This document shows positions 7,807-23,293 of a stretch of DNA of 29,798 bases, one piece after another (the first letter of the stretch is position 1; every line of letters starts with the position of its first letter). The notes under the pieces were generated by a model. It did no database searches and was not told the DNA's origin. It was given only the letters and a program-made list of their open reading frames with translations. Source of the stretch: a virus. Made by a program: the position numbers and the translations under genes. The stretch is taken from positions 1-29,798 of the IMG/VR virus record IMGVR_UViG_3300032246_002423; one strand, given 5' to 3'.

Positions 7807-7880
7807 ACACCAGTAGCCAAGTTGGTTAAGGCCCCGAACTCATAATTCGGTTATCGTAGGTTCAAGTCCTACCTGGTGTA
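7807..7880 (+). tRNA. tRNA with CAU anticodon (Met or lysidine-type Ile)
   Basis: The acceptor stem ACACCAG/CTGGTGT is perfect. The anticodon arm is CCGAA-CTCATAA-TTCGG, and the T arm GTAGG-TTCAAGT-CCTAC is perfect. No CCA is encoded. CAU reads AUG, or AUA if C34 is modified to lysidine; sequence alone cannot decide. Confidence 0.9.
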
Positions 7881-7884
7881 CTAT

Positions 7885-7958
7885 ACATCTGTAACTCAGT
7901 TGGTTAGAGTACCTGCCTTATATGCAGAGAGCCGAAGGTTCAAGTCCTTCCAGATGTA
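7885..7958 (+). tRNA. tRNA-Ile (UAU)
   Basis: The acceptor stem ACATCTG/CAGATGT and T arm GAAGG-TTCAAGT-CCTTC are perfect. The anticodon loop is CTTATAT, giving UAU. The outermost anticodon-stem pair is C-A. UAU is a rare bacterial anticodon, because AUA is normally read by a lysidine-modified CAU tRNA. Confidence 0.85.
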
Positions 7959-7980
7959 CTAAATAATTAAATATAGTAAT

Positions 7981-8051
7981 GCGGATGTTGCATATTGGTA
8001 GTGCCTCTGCCTTCCAAGCAGAAGGGGTGAGTTCGATTCTCATCATCCGCT
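7981..8051 (+). tRNA. tRNA-Gly (UCC)
   Basis: The acceptor stem GCGGATG/CATCCGC, anticodon arm TCTGC-CTTCCAA-GCAGA and T arm GTGAG-TTCGATT-CTCAT are present. No CCA is encoded. Confidence 0.92.
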
Positions 8052-8055
8052 CTGG

Positions 8056-8128
8056 GTCCCCATCGTCTAGAGGCCTAGGACATCGCCCTTTCACGGCGGT
8101 AACACGGGTTCGAATCCCGTTGGGGGCA
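8056..8128 (+). tRNA. tRNA-Glu (UUC)
   Basis: The acceptor stem GTCCCCA/TGGGGGC is present, and the anticodon loop CTTTCAC gives UUC. The T arm is ACGGG-TTCGAAT-CCCGT. The sequence closely resembles typical bacterial tRNA-Glu. Confidence 0.95.
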
Positions 8129-8137
8129 CAATACCAT

Positions 8138-8211
8138 TCCTAGATCGTCTAAAGGCAGGACAGGGGCCTTTGAAGCCCTTAATCGTGGTTCGAATCCATG
8201 TCTGGGAGCCA
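8138..8211 (+). tRNA. tRNA-Gln (UUG), CCA encoded
   Basis: The acceptor stem TCCTAGA/TCTGGGA is followed by discriminator G (8208) and CCA (8209-8211). The anticodon loop CTTTGAA gives UUG. It is the only tRNA in the cluster with a templated CCA. Confidence 0.9.
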
Positions 8212-8212
8212 A

Positions 8213-8283
8213 GGGCCTAAAGCATTAAAGTGATGCTCAGGACTTTTAATCCTGAGAAGAAGGAGCATTACCTTCTAGGCCTA
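8213..8283 (+). tRNA. tRNA-Lys (UUU)
   Basis: The acceptor stem GGGCCTA/TAGGCCT is present, and the anticodon arm CAGGA-CTTTTAA-TCCTG gives UUU. The T-arm stem GAAGG/CCTTC is perfect, but the loop AGCATTA departs from the usual TTCGANN. It starts one base after the tRNA-Gln CCA. Confidence 0.8.
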
Positions 8284-8287
8284 CTAA

Positions 8288-8360
8288 ACCTCTGTAGTTC
8301 AGTGGACAGAACGATGGACTTCTAAGCCATGCGTCGCAGGTTCGATTCCTGCCAGGGGTA
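8288..8360 (+). tRNA. tRNA-Arg (UCU)
   Basis: The acceptor stem ACCTCTG/CAGGGGT is present, the anticodon loop CTTCTAA gives UCU, and the T arm is GCAGG-TTCGATT-CCTGC. There is an A-G mismatch at the loop-closing pair of the anticodon stem. Confidence 0.88.
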
Positions 8361-8394
8361 CTGCACAAGTGATATACTTTATAAAAGGAGTTTT

Positions 8395-9495
8395 ATGAAC
8401 ATTGTTATTCCCATGTCTGGTTTGGGATCTAGATTTAAAGCCAAAGGTATAGATACTCCAAAGCCATTAATTCAAGTTGATAATAAATATTTAATTGAGC
8501 ACTCTATATCATCTCTTGGAATTAATGGAAAATATATTTTTATTACTAAAAAATATGAAGATAAAACATATAATGATCAATTATCTTTTCTTTTAAAGTC
8601 TTTAGTACCAGATTCTGTTGAAATTCAAGTTGATCGTGAACAGTATGGTGCAGCAGATGCAGCATTGTATGCAGCAGACTATATTGATAATGATGAGCCA
8701 CTAATAATTACAAATTGTGATCAAATACTTTTTTGGAACTCTCAAGAATTTATAGATTTTGTAAGTAGCACCCCTATTGATGGAGCAGTAGCAATTTTTA
8801 AATCTTCTGATCCAAAAAATAGTTTTGCAATAATTAAAGATAATATAATTACTAATATAGAAGAAAAAAACCCAATAAGTTCAGATGCTCTAGTTGGTTT
8901 ACATTACTGGAAACATGGAAAAGACTTTATTTTTTCTGCTAAAAAATTATTATCGGAGTATAGGGAAAAGGGTTTTCCAGAATGCTATATCTCCTCAACA
9001 TATAACTATTTAATTAATTCTGGTAAAGTAATTGCACCATATTTAATGCCACATAATGGATATGTCTCTCTTGGTACTCCAGAAGATATTGAAGTATACA
9101 ATGGAAAAGTTAAAGAATTTTATACAGATAAACCAAAAACTATTTTTTGTGATATTGATGGCACAATTATTAAGCATGCACACAAATTTAGTCTTGTTGG
9201 AAAAGATAATGCAAAAGATTTAGATGGTGTTCTTGCTAAATTTAATGAATGGGATTCTAAGGGTCATAAAATTATTTTAACAACTGCTAGAAAAGAATCA
9301 GCAAGATATATAACCGAAAAACAATTAAGCGATCTTGGTTTTTGTTGGGATTACCTACTAATGGGCATGACAAGTGGTGTTCGTGTTTTAATCAATGATA
9401 GACATCGCTTAACAGATAATGACAGGGCAGTTGCAATAAGCCTACTGACTGATGAAGGATTTAATAATATAGATTGGAATGCAATCGGCTTATGA
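8395..9495 (+). CDS. Sugar nucleotidyltransferase-HAD phosphatase fusion
   Basis: This 366-residue two-domain protein has an N-terminal NTP-transferase domain with the nucleotide loop G9-L-G-S-R13 and K23-P downstream (TPKPLIQV). It resembles enzymes that activate hexose phosphates to NDP-sugars. From about residue 250 a HAD-like phosphatase begins with CDIDGT, followed by ILTTARKES and LINDRH. The fusion could couple sugar-phosphate activation with a dephosphorylation step in glycan assembly. A TATACT element and AAGGAG site precede ATG 8395. An in-frame extension to 8329 would run into the tRNA-Arg gene, so I rejected it. It is coupled to the cupin gene by ATGA. Confidence 0.75.
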   Translation: MNIVIPMSGLGSRFKAKGIDTPKPLIQVDNKYLIEHSISSLGINGKYIFITKKYEDKTYNDQLSFLLKSLVPDSVEIQVDREQYGAADAALYAADYIDNDEPLIITNCDQILFWNSQEFIDFVSSTPIDGAVAIFKSSDPKNSFAIIKDNIITNIEEKNPISSDALVGLHYWKHGKDFIFSAKKLLSEYREKGFPECYISSTYNYLINSGKVIAPYLMPHNGYVSLGTPEDIEVYNGKVKEFYTDKPKTIFCDIDGTIIKHAHKFSLVGKDNAKDLDGVLAKFNEWDSKGHKIILTTARKESARYITEKQLSDLGFCWDYLLMGMTSGVRVLINDRHRLTDNDRAVAISLLTDEGFNNIDWNAIGL

Positions 9496-15205: not shown

Positions 15206-15400
15206 TTATTCTCCTTTTGCGTCTGGATGATCAAGTGGGGTTGGAGCAGTAATTAAGCAATCACACTCAGCACATCTTGCATCATCTAATAAATAACCAG
15301 CAACATCATAAGTTTCTGGATCAAACTGAACTGTAATTCTTATAAATACAGAACCACAGCATGGACAAATTGATGAAGGAATTCCCCTTGCATCAATCAT
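15206..15400 (-). CDS. Zinc-ribbon protein
   Basis: This 64-residue protein has CPCC (residues 12-15) and CAEC (residues 43-46), followed by Cys-Leu-Ile, with a beta-like centre. It is a classic short zinc ribbon of the kind I recall in many aquatic phages. It starts in an overlap with the gene upstream and ends just before the ribosome binding site of the XapX-like gene. Confidence 0.6.
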   Translation of the reverse strand: MIDARGIPSSICPCCGSVFIRITVQFDPETYDVAGYLLDDARCAECDCLITAPTPLDHPDAKGE

Positions 15401-15785
15401 TTTTTATTTCTTCTGGAAATATTTTTTCTAGTTCTCTATATAGTTCTACTATTGTAACCATTTGATCATAAAGTGGATATCCAGAGCCAACAAGTCCAAC
15501 TCGCTCAAAATGTTCAACTATTGGCAACATATCTTTTTGAAATTTCAGAAAACTTTCTTGAACTGTCTCAATATATAAAAATGCATCATCTCTAGATTTA
15601 TTTAAAAATATTAAATATTCTTGACTATTTTTAATAGATATATCGTCTTTTAATATTGTATTATCAATAGAAGTTTGCAAAAGTTTCTTTGAAACTTTAT
15701 GTAATGATGATCTAACTTTTGCATTATCAAATATTAAAAATAAAAAAGAAGATATAAAAATAAAAAATATTATAAAATCTAGCAT
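15393..15785 (-). CDS. Membrane-anchored hypothetical protein
   Basis: This 130-residue protein has an N-terminal hydrophobic segment (residues 2-20, rich in Phe and Ile) followed by a helical, probably coiled-coil cytoplasmic part. ATG 15785 is chosen because GGGGG lies 4 bases upstream; the ORF is open to 15803. It overlaps both neighbours. The layout (anchor plus coiled coil) is compatible with spanin-like or superinfection-exclusion proteins, with no specific evidence. Confidence 0.55.
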   Translation of the reverse strand: MLDFIIFFIFISSFLFLIFDNAKVRSSLHKVSKKLLQTSIDNTILKDDISIKNSQEYLIFLNKSRDDAFLYIETVQESFLKFQKDMLPIVEHFERVGLVGSGYPLYDQMVTIVELYRELEKIFPEEIKND

Positions 15786-15793
15786 GCAACCCC

Positions 15794-16078
15794 CTATATC
15801 CAATACTTAATTATAGCAGTAAGAGCCAATGTTGTCCATATAAGATTAAATATAATTATAGTGGGTAATGTTTTCACTGTTGATGTCCAAATTAAGGATA
15901 AACTAGATACTAATGCAAAAATATATAGCCACCACCATTGCATACCAAAAAGCAGTCCTGGTACAATTATTGTTACCTTTGTCATGAAGGCAATAAACTC
16001 TATTGTATTTGTTTTATTCCAATAAGATTTTTTTCTCATTGTTAATAGTACAGTTTTAATTGTAGAAAGGCTATTCAT
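15794..16078 (-). CDS. Small integral membrane protein
   Basis: This 94-residue protein has three hydrophobic stretches (about residues 30-47, 48-63 and 70-92) with many Trp residues. The start ATG 16078 overlaps the end of the halogenase gene (AATGAATAG), with GGGGG upstream, so it is translated with the halogenase. It may serve as a membrane partner; there is no direct evidence. Confidence 0.55.
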   Translation of the reverse strand: MNSLSTIKTVLLTMRKKSYWNKTNTIEFIAFMTKVTIIVPGLLFGMQWWWLYIFALVSSLSLIWTSTVKTLPTIIIFNLIWTTLALTAIIKYWI

Positions 16079-17594
16079 TAAATCCCCCAAGTTGTTTGAT
16101 AAACTGCGAATGATCAATAAAATGGTTTGATAAAACTTTTCTTTTTGCTTTAACTTTATTTAGTTGTTCTTCCTGATGCTTGTATTGTTTATATATGTCT
16201 TGAAGATAATCTTTATTAAAAATATTATTTCCATACATAATTATATAATAACTGATTGGATCAAAAGACATATTTTCACCAACAGTATATTTAAAACTAT
16301 TTAAATCTTTAATTTTTTCTTTTAATGTTTCTGGCATTTTATTATTAATAGTAAAGTTTGTCCAAAAATCAGTATTCATTTTATCTGTCATGTAATGCAG
16401 GTATAAAAAGTCTCTGATCTCCTCGCAATCCGCTGAATAAGTATCATTAAGTATTTGAACATGTTCTTTATTTTTTTCAAAGATATTGAATTCTTTTCTA
16501 AAAGCAATACCCAATACAGTAATTGATTGCATTATAGATGTTGCCTCTAAAGGTTCAACAAACCCTGAAGAAAGACCTACTGCTATTGTGTTTTTATTCC
16601 ATATTGTTTTATAATGACCTGGATTAAATGTAAATGTTTTAGGAGATTGAATTTCATGTCCCAATTTTTTTTCAATTTCTTTTTTTGCTTCATCTTCTGT
16701 TATATAGTCAGAATCAAAAACATATCCACAGCCATATCTATGCTGTAATGGTATCTTCCACATCCAACCATAATTCATTGCTGTGGACTCTGTATATGCT
16801 GGTATGTTTTCTTTATCTATATCAAGAAAAAATGGAACTGCTTTTTTTGCTGGTAAACTTTCTGAAAAACTTTTCCATTCTGTTTTAAAAATATTTTTAT
16901 TTATTAGTCTGGCAAAACCAGAACAATCAAAAATAAAATCAGAGTTAACTTTAAAGCCATCCTTTAATTTAATCTCTATAATATCTCCTGTGCTATCTTG
17001 AATAAAATCTTCAATAACACCATCTACATGCACAACTCCTCTTTGAATTGCTACCTCTGATAAATATTTTGCCATTGCTCTTGCATCAAAATGCAAAGAG
17101 TATAGATTATATATATCAAAATCTGATATATCTGTTGACTGATTATTTTTTCCTATAAAAGGTATTTTATTTACATCTAAAGCCATTGCAGATATTTTAT
17201 ATTCATCTTGTTTTACATCTTGTGACATATAAAAAAGATCTAAAACTGGAATTTTATTTTTATTTGTTGGAGTATTAAAAAATATTTCTTTTGTTTTTAA
17301 ATTAAATTTATTTATTGAAAATCCATGATAATAACTATTTCCATTATTGTTAAAATTATCAAATTTAATTGCAAGTTTCATTGTTGAATTGGTTTTTTTT
17401 ATTAAATCCTGAACAGATATTCCTAGTGAGTCAAGGAATGGAATAAAATTTGGGGTTGAACCCTCTCCTGCACCCAATATACCAATTTCAGTACTCTCTA
17501 TGACAGTAATTGAGCAGTCTGGGTACCTTTTTTGTGCAGCAAGTGCTGTTAGCCATCCCGCAGTTCCGCCACCTACAACAACAATTTTTTTCAA
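16071..17594 (-). CDS. Flavin-dependent halogenase (tryptophan halogenase family)
   Basis: This 507-residue protein is full length for the family. The FAD loop GGGTAGW is at residues 8-14 and the second flavin motif GAGEGSTP at 41-48. The catalytic-lysine region TMKLAIKF has K73 at the position of the chloramine lysine of PrnA-type enzymes. The diagnostic W-x-W-x-I-P (WMWKIP) is near residue 276, and PLEATSI is near 347. Such enzymes oxidise chloride, bromide or iodide with reduced flavin and halogenate aromatic substrates. No flavin reductase is visible. It starts at TTG overlapping the upstream TGA. Confidence 0.9.
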   Translation of the reverse strand: MKKIVVVGGGTAGWLTALAAQKRYPDCSITVIESTEIGILGAGEGSTPNFIPFLDSLGISVQDLIKKTNSTMKLAIKFDNFNNNGNSYYHGFSINKFNLKTKEIFFNTPTNKNKIPVLDLFYMSQDVKQDEYKISAMALDVNKIPFIGKNNQSTDISDFDIYNLYSLHFDARAMAKYLSEVAIQRGVVHVDGVIEDFIQDSTGDIIEIKLKDGFKVNSDFIFDCSGFARLINKNIFKTEWKSFSESLPAKKAVPFFLDIDKENIPAYTESTAMNYGWMWKIPLQHRYGCGYVFDSDYITEDEAKKEIEKKLGHEIQSPKTFTFNPGHYKTIWNKNTIAVGLSSGFVEPLEATSIMQSITVLGIAFRKEFNIFEKNKEHVQILNDTYSADCEEIRDFLYLHYMTDKMNTDFWTNFTINNKMPETLKEKIKDLNSFKYTVGENMSFDPISYYIIMYGNNIFNKDYLQDIYKQYKHQEEQLNKVKAKRKVLSNHFIDHSQFIKQLGGFNE

Positions 17595-17812
17595 ATTGGT
17601 TTTCCACCTTCACGAACTAATAAGACTATTGCCCCATTATCTTCTAATGCTTTTTTAACTCTTATCATATACTCTACTGCAGCAACTCTATCTTCAACTG
17701 TTAGCCTCATGAAATCTGGCTCACTAGCCTTTACAGTAATAAAATTTTCATTATCTACTAGCGTCACATTAAAGTTTTTAGGTGCATGAATAGAGCGAAA
17801 TGCTCTTTTCAT
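17591..17812 (-). CDS. Small hypothetical protein before the halogenase
   Basis: This 73-residue protein has a beta strand, a central RLTVEDRVAAVEYMIRVKKALEDN-type amphipathic helix and a short strand. I prefer ATG 17812 because TATACA ends 6 bases upstream, as in the leaderless units. A GTG at 17827 with AGGA and a TAGTG junction is a good alternative that adds 5 residues. It is coupled to the halogenase by a TTGA overlap, so the two are coexpressed. The function is unknown. Confidence 0.55.
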   Translation of the reverse strand: MKRAFRSIHAPKNFNVTLVDNENFITVKASEPDFMRLTVEDRVAAVEYMIRVKKALEDNGAIVLLVREGGKPI

Positions 17813-17826
17813 TTGATCTGTATACA

Positions 17827-18030
17827 CTAATTCCTACCCCAAGAAATTTTATTCCACCCACGCTCATGAAAGTAATAAAGTATTGTCTTTGTTATCACTT
17901 CAAACCCTGCAATTGATGCAGCAGTAATTGCCTTATGTGTTATAAAGTATGACAATACAAAGGTATCTGCCGTTCCAATTATGCGCCAAGTGATTGCTTT
18001 TATTGCTGATCTTTGTTTAGTTACTTTCAT
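17827..18030 (-). CDS. DUF2061 membrane protein, copy 1
   Basis: This 67-residue protein shows the DUF2061 pattern: a basic start (KAITWRIIGTADTF), two hydrophobic helices and the ending YYFHERGWNKI. A second member is at 23293. The family's function is unknown; it also occurs near sulfate-assimilation genes in bacteria as I recall it, and here an APS kinase-like gene lies just upstream. The ribosome binding site is GGGGCAGGG. Confidence 0.75.
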   Translation of the reverse strand: MKVTKQRSAIKAITWRIIGTADTFVLSYFITHKAITAASIAGFEVITKTILYYFHERGWNKISWGRN

Positions 18031-18072
18031 TGCCCTGCCCCTATAGCCAACCAGGACAAAACTTCTTTTATT

Positions 18073-18834
18073 TTAGAGACCCATCTCTTTACGTTTTTGC
18101 GTAGCGCTAATAGCATGAATGTCTGCCCCCAAATCTACTTGCTCAATCTTATATCCTACATCACGACCATAAACAATGTTAGTAATGTTTGGTAATCTTA
18201 ATACTAATGCACCATCCATAAATTCATCCTTGGCAATATATTCTTTTACCTGATCAAACTTAAGTGGATCTTTCTCGCTTGTATTATATGTGTTTCGTAC
18301 TCCAAGAAGTACTTGATCTGTACGCTTGCCAGCCTCTACGTATAAAGCATGATGCCCTTCATGCCATGGTTGATATCTACCAAGCATAAGTGTTGTAGGT
18401 GCAGACCAATCATGCAAACTAAATTGATCAATTATCTGTGTTGCTTTTTCATTTGCATCCCACTCATGGCTAATGAATACAATATCAAACTCTGAAGGCT
18501 TTTCAAACATCTTGTTGGTGTCTTCAAATCTACCTTCTGAAATTGTGTCCATAAATACTAAAATATTTGGCTTACCAAATGCTGCACGAGTTAAATCTGT
18601 TGGGCATACAAAGTCAACAATAACTGGTGCAACACCTTGCTTTGAAATTAGTTTTGCCATCTCGCCCATACGACGAGCCTGTTCAATTCTATCTTCTGGA
18701 GTAAATCCTAAATCTGAATTTACCGTTGCTCTTACTTCATCTGCATTAAGGTGAATAGCGTTAATTCTTTCTTTTAATGCTTTTGCAAGTTCTGTTTTTC
18801 CTGAGCCAGGTAGCCCAATAATTTGAATAATCAT
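18073..18834 (-). CDS. APS kinase-like / HxGH nucleotidyltransferase fusion
   Basis: This 253-residue protein has an N-terminal kinase with P loop GLPGSGKT (7-14), then LNADEVR and DLGFTPEDRIEQARRMGEM. The latter is characteristic of APS kinase, which makes PAPS from adenylyl sulfate. The C-terminal domain has GRYQPWHEGH (about 149-158) and ISATQKRK (242-249), the two motifs of cytidylyl/NMN-adenylyl-type nucleotidyltransferases. ATP sulfurylase has a related HxGH, so a PAPS synthase-like enzyme is conceivable, but the motif looks closer to NadM/RibL types. It could feed the three sulfotransferase-like proteins. A TATACT promoter and GGAG site precede it. Confidence 0.75.
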   Translation of the reverse strand: MIIQIIGLPGSGKTELAKALKERINAIHLNADEVRATVNSDLGFTPEDRIEQARRMGEMAKLISKQGVAPVIVDFVCPTDLTRAAFGKPNILVFMDTISEGRFEDTNKMFEKPSEFDIVFISHEWDANEKATQIIDQFSLHDWSAPTTLMLGRYQPWHEGHHALYVEAGKRTDQVLLGVRNTYNTSEKDPLKFDQVKEYIAKDEFMDGALVLRLPNITNIVYGRDVGYKIEQVDLGADIHAISATQKRKEMGL

Positions 18835-18868
18835 ATAAATAACTCCATTTCAACTATATAAGTATACA

Positions 18869-19162
18869 CTATTTAATTTCCTTTTCTGTTACTAGGTATT
18901 TCCATGTATTTCCCCAGTCAGATTTACTTTTGTGGCTATTAAACTCTTTTGATATTAGTCCACCTTCTAAATAAATACCGCCCCAAACTCCCCACTCTTT
19001 TGTAGAAACACCAACCGCAAAACACTTATTTGCAACAGGGCATCCAGAACAAAGTTTGTCTACCGCACTTCTTAAATTTTCTTCATCTTCATACTTTTCA
19101 AAAAATATATTTGTATCATATTCAAAGCATAAAGCATCATCTTTCCATCTATCTCTATGCAT
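18869..19162 (-). CDS. WhiB-family iron-sulfur regulator
   Basis: This 97-residue protein has the four cluster ligands C12, C38, C41 and C47 in the WhiB arrangement (C...CxxC...C) and the turn GVWGG (58-62), after which the Arg/Lys-rich tail normally contacts DNA. WhiB proteins are confined to Actinobacteria and their phages, so this is a key host marker. They act with the main sigma factor. In phages they can block or redirect host WhiB control. The tail here is short and only moderately basic. Confidence 0.9.
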   Translation of the reverse strand: MHRDRWKDDALCFEYDTNIFFEKYEDEENLRSAVDKLCSGCPVANKCFAVGVSTKEWGVWGGIYLEGGLISKEFNSHKSKSDWGNTWKYLVTEKEIK

Positions 19163-22701: not shown

Positions 22702-22884
22702 TTATTTTCTATTATCTGTTACATAAAATCCTGAACCATGAAATGCTGACCCTACTGGTGTATAGACACGAACAAGTTTGGAGTTGCATGTTTCACAGTT
22801 GTATCCTGGTTCTGCCTCAGACATTGATCTTTGTTTTTCATATCTTTTTGCACAAGGCATGCAATCATATACATATATTGGCAT
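22702..22884 (-). CDS. FmdB-type zinc-ribbon protein
   Basis: This 60-residue protein begins MPIYVYDCMPC, as in the FmdB regulatory-protein family, with a second pair CETC (residues 30-33) and a Gly/Phe-rich end (SAFHGSGFY). It starts in a TAATG junction with the ferredoxin. It lacks a DNA-binding domain. The family's function is poorly known. Confidence 0.75.
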   Translation of the reverse strand: MPIYVYDCMPCAKRYEKQRSMSEAEPGYNCETCNSKLVRVYTPVGSAFHGSGFYVTDNRK

Positions 22885-23189
22885 TATATTTCCTTAATTT
22901 CTGGATGATCTAGATGTTTTTGTGTGTGGTTTACTGATCCCTGCAAATTTCCAATTGGTATAAAAAATTCATGGTTAATTCTTTTAAAATCTAATTTTTC
23001 TTTTGGAAGTTCTTCATCCCAATATATTGCATCTGTAGGACAAACTGGTTGACATGCTCCACAATCAATACATTCTTCTTGATTAATATAAAGCATTCTT
23101 CCGCCTTCATAAATACAATCAACAGGGCATTCGGCAATGCATGACCTATCTTTTATATCTACACATGCATCAGTTATTACATATGCCAT
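22884..23189 (-). CDS. fdxA: FdxA-type 7Fe ferredoxin
   Basis: This 101-residue protein is read from ATG 23189. Cys residues at 9, 17, 21 and 25 and at 40, 43, 46 and 50 match the 3Fe-4S plus 4Fe-4S pattern of actinobacterial FdxA (CIAECPVDCIYEGG, CIDCGACQPVCP). It is an electron carrier. Possible partners in the window are the oxygenase-like enzymes or, less likely, the halogenase, which needs FADH2. It is coupled by TAATG on both sides. Confidence 0.85.
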   Translation of the reverse strand: MAYVITDACVDIKDRSCIAECPVDCIYEGGRMLYINQEECIDCGACQPVCPTDAIYWDEELPKEKLDFKRINHEFFIPIGNLQGSVNHTQKHLDHPEIKEI

Positions 23190-23293
23190 TATTTTTTCTT
23201 TGCTTTTACTGTCCAAAAAGGCAGTTTGAGATTGTCTCCGCCCCATTCATATCCAAGTGCTTTAACAACAAACTTAATAATTTTAATACGCAT
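23189..23293 (-). CDS. Tiny basic protein
   Basis: This 34-residue Lys-rich protein (MRIKIIKFVVKALGYEWGG..., ending KAKKK) lies between two TAATG junctions with a GGGGG site before its ATG. The precise coupling makes translation likely despite the small size. The function is unknown. Confidence 0.5.
   Translation of the reverse strand: MRIKIIKFVVKALGYEWGGDNLKLPFWTVKAKKK

Follow-up and report, generated by a model that had tools for sequence, protein, structure and literature searches.

A phage-borne flavin-dependent halogenase is accessory cargo recurrently paired with a small membrane protein

In the virus family studied here, the gene for a flavin-dependent halogenase (FDH) is accessory cargo, and it travels with a gene for a small membrane protein of 94 amino acids (aa), which we call TM94. 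Both features are new here and were missed by the original prediction, which was made from the DNA letters alone. Enzymes of this kind put chlorine, bromine or iodine onto aromatic molecules, and their genes are carried by hundreds of viral contigs. The stretch of DNA that we analysed (the window) comprises 29,798 nucleotides (nt), positions 1 to 29,798 of the IMG/VR virus record IMGVR_UViG_3300032246_002423. We propose, with confidence that is evenly balanced, that FDH and TM94 together form an accessory halogenation unit of two genes, whose site of action is the host membrane or its vicinity and whose substrate is aromatic.

The FDH gene occupies positions 16071-17594 on the minus strand and is a complete open reading frame (ORF) of 507 aa with a TTG start and no internal stops. 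A Shine–Dalgarno sequence, AAGGTGG (17604-17610, minus strand), which is conserved in relatives, lies about 10 bases upstream of the TTG, and the start shares the letters TTGA with the stop of the preceding gene, u78. The TTG start, the stop overlap and the Shine–Dalgarno sequence are all present in most FDH relatives at 62-67% identity. The protein matches the Pfam family Trp_halogenase (PF04820) over residues 3-463 of 507 with 353.6 bits (E 2e-105; cut-off 21), its match among PHROGs is PHROG 2928 ('tryptophan halogenase'), and the PDB sequences of solved FDHs match it with E values down to 2e-64; NCBIfam returned weak generic flavoprotein matches and nothing else. Modelled with AlphaFold2 from a viral alignment (pLDDT 88.4, pTM 0.90), the enzyme is predicted to have the FDH fold, with Z scores of 40.6 to PrnA, 41.8 to 9luq, 35.5 to VirX1 and 38-43 to many FDHs. 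The full-length FDH claimed in the original prediction is thus borne out, well beyond chance, by its length, family match and fold. The gene is under purifying selection, with dN/dS values of 0.12-0.44 between relatives.

We read the active site from an alignment of 24 viral homologues and from one with PrnA (sequence as in PDB 2apg), in which the position of E346 was anchored by the E346D structure 2jkc. The dinucleotide motif GxGxxG is formed by G8, G10 and G13, and the W-x-W-x-I-P motif by W277, W279, I281 and P282, corresponding to W272, W274 and P277 of PrnA. The catalytic lysine, K73 (PrnA K79), is the first lysine of MKLAIKF, and the catalytic glutamate is E350 (PrnA E346); both are invariant across the 24 aligned viral homologues. 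Two stretches differ in detail from the reference: FDH carries GAGEGSTP, with GAGE where PrnA reads GVGE, and EPLEATS stands in its halide loop where the reference has EPLESTG. All of the motifs on which the original prediction had relied (GGGTAGW, GEGSTP, the MKLAIKF lysine and W-x-W-x-I-P) were recovered by alignment, and loss of the catalytic lysine, which it had named as a possible refutation, is contradicted by the retention of K73 in the alignments with PrnA and the 24 viral homologues. Judged by its retained residues, the enzyme is apparently intact, and by homology its chemistry is likely to be halogenation. That it is instead a halogenase-fold flavoenzyme that no longer halogenates, working as an oxidase or monooxygenase, is conceivable from the few compared family members that have lost K79 or E346; this seems very unlikely for an enzyme under purifying selection in which, as in its clade, K73, E350, W277 and W279 are all kept.

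Substrate motifs separate FDH from the classical enzymes. The Trp4 motif, which binds free tryptophan, occurs in halogenase groups A and B (PMC8269204). In FDH this motif is missing: PrnA Y443/Y444 align with gaps, E450 is replaced by G and F454 by S. On this test, FDH would fall outside the free-tryptophan halogenases of groups A and B. The tryptophan halogenases PrnA, RebH, Thal and PyrH share its fold and the equivalents of K79, E346 and WxWxIP, which were checked against PrnA, but differ from it in having Trp4 and in reading ESTG where FDH reads EATS.

Phylogeny with VirX1 and PrnA, as suggested in the original prediction, set FDH apart from both. In a tree of 69 rows (a quick version with SH-aLRT support only), it belongs to a 22-member clade of uncultured phage FDHs (support 99) near the enzyme of Pelagibacter phage HTVC008M (AGE60413), whereas VirX1 shares a separate clade with four further cyanophage FDHs (support 100) and PrnA, BorH (6ul2) and Th-Hal make up another (support 97). 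The HTVC008M enzyme, from a sister lineage and 40% identical, is the closest named phage relative, but its gene sits between terminase genes next to a phytanoyl-CoA dioxygenase gene and lacks TM94, unlike that in the window. VirX1, which is the cyanophage Syn10 protein AGH56623 and identical to PDB 6qgm, resembles FDH in fold, catalytic residues and the missing Trp4 motif, but is only 26% identical and has a Z score of 35.5; placed outside this well-supported Syn10 clade, FDH does not appear to be of the VirX1 type. The bacterial BrvH, Xcc4156 and Pseudoalteromonas 9luq group is among the top structure and sequence matches. The best 80 matches in bacterial genomes are nearly all proteobacterial, with a few labelled Deltaproteobacteria, at 28-36% identity (mostly 30-36%). 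Judged by these best 80 matches, a recent acquisition from an actinobacterial host seems unlikely and was tentatively rejected.

The virus itself is identified as an actinophage by a gene for a WhiB-family transcription factor (18869-19162, minus strand; PF02467, E 1e-11), a type of gene that the literature uses as an actinophage marker (PMC6802176, PMC10202952). WhiB is present in 33 of 41 relatives, in which it is kept near FDH, and in a control of 14 genomes PF02467 matched in Corynebacterium only, in agreement with the actinophage context originally proposed. The G+C content of the window is 33% (31-36% in most relatives) and that of the low-GC aquatic Actinomarinales is 32.5%, which is compatible with a low-GC aquatic actinobacterial host. 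Two other elements of the original prediction fared less well. The novelty claimed for a halogenase in an actinophage falls because a halogenase alongside WhiB had been published in 2023 for Actinomycetia phage DSL-LC01 (PMC10611076), and WhiB accompanies FDH in 19 of 40 FDH-bearing viral records. The sulfation-gene context is thin, amounting to one marginal sulfotransferase match. DSL-LC01 (OQ999401) resembles the window phage as a WhiB-bearing predicted actinophage with a glycosyltransferase nearby, but its FDH (WJZ48553; 12001-13536 of our contig L044) is 27% identical, lacks TM94, has altered motifs, among them TLAE in place of GVGE, and sits on a long branch of unsure placement in the 69-row tree. 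Because the second tryptophan of its WxWxIP motif (W274) is replaced by S and the catalytic glutamate (E346) by D, its halogenase activity is doubtful. When the window was compared with named phages by megablast, the only match was the region of a tRNA cluster, in which seven tRNA genes are packed into 555 bases (7807-8361).

The accessory status of FDH is evident from its genomic surroundings. The gene order u140–u116–u81–WhiB–[variable]–u78–FDH is seen in dozens of contigs. In the window, the variable cargo between WhiB and u78 (17827-18834, minus strand), which comes and goes between relatives, consists of genes for a DUF2061 membrane protein (17827-18030, minus strand) and an APS-kinase-like/nucleotidyltransferase-like protein (18073-18834, minus strand). 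The FDH–TM94 unit is bordered on the left by u78 (17591-17827, minus strand), which encodes a conserved 78-aa phage protein, and on the right by c136 (15393-15803, minus strand), encoding a conserved hypothetical protein. A 99.6-kb contig from a close relative, L202, in which u78 is 97% identical, reads WhiB–APSK–DUF2061–u78–c136–c62–c94, so that exactly FDH and TM94 are absent; c136 likewise directly follows u78 in the FDH-less contigs L204 and L208. Among 79 loci selected by u78, WhiB is present in 75 and an adjacent FDH in one. Given L202 and this single adjacent FDH, the two genes make up an optional unit between u78 and c136. A dedicated partnership between u78 and FDH was rejected, as 78 of the 79 u78 contigs lack an adjacent FDH. 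The u78 protein has a fold similar to that of small proteins from the actinophages Trina and Coruscant; the PDB gave no significant match.

Several side observations concern the same region. The protein at 18073-18834, encoded beside the DUF2061 gene, fuses an APS-kinase-like P-loop domain to a nucleotidyltransferase-like domain (GRYQPWHEGH). In L002, a contig with an FDH 98% identical to that of the window, an extra ORF of 218 aa (8063-8719) lies between WhiB and the APS kinase; the window lacks it at 18834-18869, marking an active cargo site. Five contigs (L042, L182, L198, L201 and L045) carry two or three FDH genes in tandem or clustered, with TM94 between the two FDHs of L042.

TM94 is encoded at 15794-16078 on the minus strand, and its ATG start overlaps the FDH stop by 8 nt. 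Hydropathy indicates about three hydrophobic segments, and an alignment of 22 homologues has 18 invariant residues, including two lysines, one glutamate, two asparagines and two prolines. With no Cys and no His in these 18 columns, we rejected TM94 as a haem or Fe–S protein. It gave no Pfam match of weight and no PDB sequence, and none of 50,697 named phages contained a match. Across many different phages, close homologues lie immediately next to FDHs, some on one side and some on the other. We quantified this by a reverse scan of the viral collection with a seed alignment drawn mostly from FDH-bearing contigs, taking the best 80 of 574 matches. From these came 77 additional loci, including some that were other parts of known contigs, and 73 of the 77 had more than 600 nt on each side. 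FDH lies within 126 nt of TM94 in 72 of these 73 nearest homologues, compared with the 1 in 79 found for the neighbouring gene u78.

The association is spread widely over the FDH family. On a FastTree phylogeny of 120 FDH rows, the TM94 label changes 13 times, and supported branches force at least 10 of these changes; the label reaches the clade that holds VirX1, in which some uncultured FDHs do have TM94. All 39 distinct TM94-linked FDHs have the equivalents of K79 and E346, compared with 75 and 74, respectively, of the 81 other FDHs. TM94 proteins share a mean identity of 67%, against 38% (minimum 22%) for their FDHs, and a Mantel test shows the two sets of pairwise identities to be correlated (r 0.45; none of 2,000 permutations as high). 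The pairing has limits. Scans seeded with an unlinked member (from L354) and with a distant branch gave adjacent FDHs in 41 of 67 and 12 of 40 cases, and we accordingly rejected the idea that TM94 is strictly tied to FDH throughout its family. FDH in turn has no need of TM94, as no adjacent copy accompanies 21 of the 41 FDHs nearest to that of the window or 68 of the 82 FDH ORFs of the wider set; none was found beside the 149 bacterial FDH ORFs checked. With unlinked TM94 branches and TM94-less FDHs, the association is thus recurrent and enriched rather than an obligate pair, and what it documents is adjacency, not interaction. In contigs L401-L453 and L354, FDH-less TM94 homologues lie in the replication region, flanked by a primase-like gene on one side and a conserved gene for 218 aa on the other.

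These data bear on a possible but less favoured explanation, in which FDH acts alone as a soluble enzyme that halogenates a small indole or phenol metabolite of the host. Its gene would then be a classical auxiliary metabolic gene, the role assumed for those of cyanophages, and TM94 an unrelated small phage membrane gene inserted beside it by chance. The many relatives whose FDHs have no TM94 alongside would fit such an enzyme, as would the FDH-less contexts of the TM94 family and the in vitro iodination of many small aromatics by VirX1 (PMC8407142). Chance insertion is harder to reconcile with the joint absence of FDH and TM94 from the empty site, and with the adjacency of 72 of the 73 nearest TM94 homologues (best 80 of 574 matches) to FDHs as little as 22% identical to one another.

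The main alternative to membrane action is a peptide substrate, because a neighbouring FDH clade sits in a radical SAM/2OG cassette. Seven contigs (L170:6750-12698, L168, L164, L185, L183, L161 and L167), with FDHs 37-45% identical, combine a radical SAM/SPASM enzyme resembling the PapB/CcpM maturases, 2OG-Fe(II) oxygenases and FDH. Six of these contigs also encode, directly before the radical SAM gene, a short protein whose C terminus is rich in Cys and Trp (for example ...NCDCDCWICACACW), and L161 has a second, B12-type-like radical SAM enzyme. This arrangement looks like phage-encoded tailoring of a peptide or virion protein. MibH and a proteusin brominase are reportedly FDHs that modify ribosomally made peptides of the RiPP class. 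By analogy, the window enzyme would modify Trp or Tyr of a phage or host protein, which would also be compatible with a membrane location. The peptide-maturase-like radical SAM enzymes beside neighbouring-clade FDHs, the short Cys/Trp-rich protein, the 2OG oxygenases that flank the cassette tested and the missing free-tryptophan motif all speak for this idea, and FDHs acting on RiPPs have been reported (PMC10858898). However, the window has neither such a cassette nor an obvious peptide substrate, and the cassette FDHs form a clade of their own, so that we regard a peptide-tailoring role for the window enzyme as rather unlikely.

For an FDH–TM94 unit acting at the membrane, the electrons would have to be supplied. 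In keeping with the original prediction that no flavin reductase is visible, PF01613 had no match at or above the cut-off in 31 phage records, including HTVC008M, Syn10, P-SSM2, S-H38 and DSL-LC01, and the same search found the family in 13 of 14 control genomes. A phage-borne flavin reductase was rejected on these grounds, and the host is therefore the likely source of FADH2. A gene for a 4Fe–4S dicluster ferredoxin at 22884-23246 of the window is unlikely to encode a fixed FDH partner, because only three close relatives share it. During infection, FDH would bind FADH2 from a host flavin reductase, and the complex would react with O2 to give a flavin-C4a-hydroperoxide, which would oxidize halide to HOX. 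The HOX would reach K73 by way of an internal tunnel; there, with the participation of E350, it would halogenate an aromatic ring through electrophilic substitution. The most likely role of TM94 is to keep either FDH or the molecule that FDH modifies at the host membrane, a location that we infer. If it is such a tether, halogenation would fall on an aromatic group carried by a molecule or protein of the membrane or envelope, and not on free tryptophan. More tentatively, and with confidence short of even, we suggest that the pair is a mobile halogenation unit that works at the host membrane or envelope and that unrelated phages, including actinophages, have acquired repeatedly.

If this is true, TM94 would be a dedicated membrane partner of FDH, and we know of no earlier example of such a partner for a flavin-dependent halogenase. 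Its pairing with very different halogenases in other phages hints at the place where viral halogenases may be active. Biocatalysis could also draw on the numerous FDH sequences, which keep intact active sites and diverge from VirX1. Together, the membrane partner, the empty site and the sister cassette with its possible peptide substrate make the question of what phages halogenate experimentally specific.
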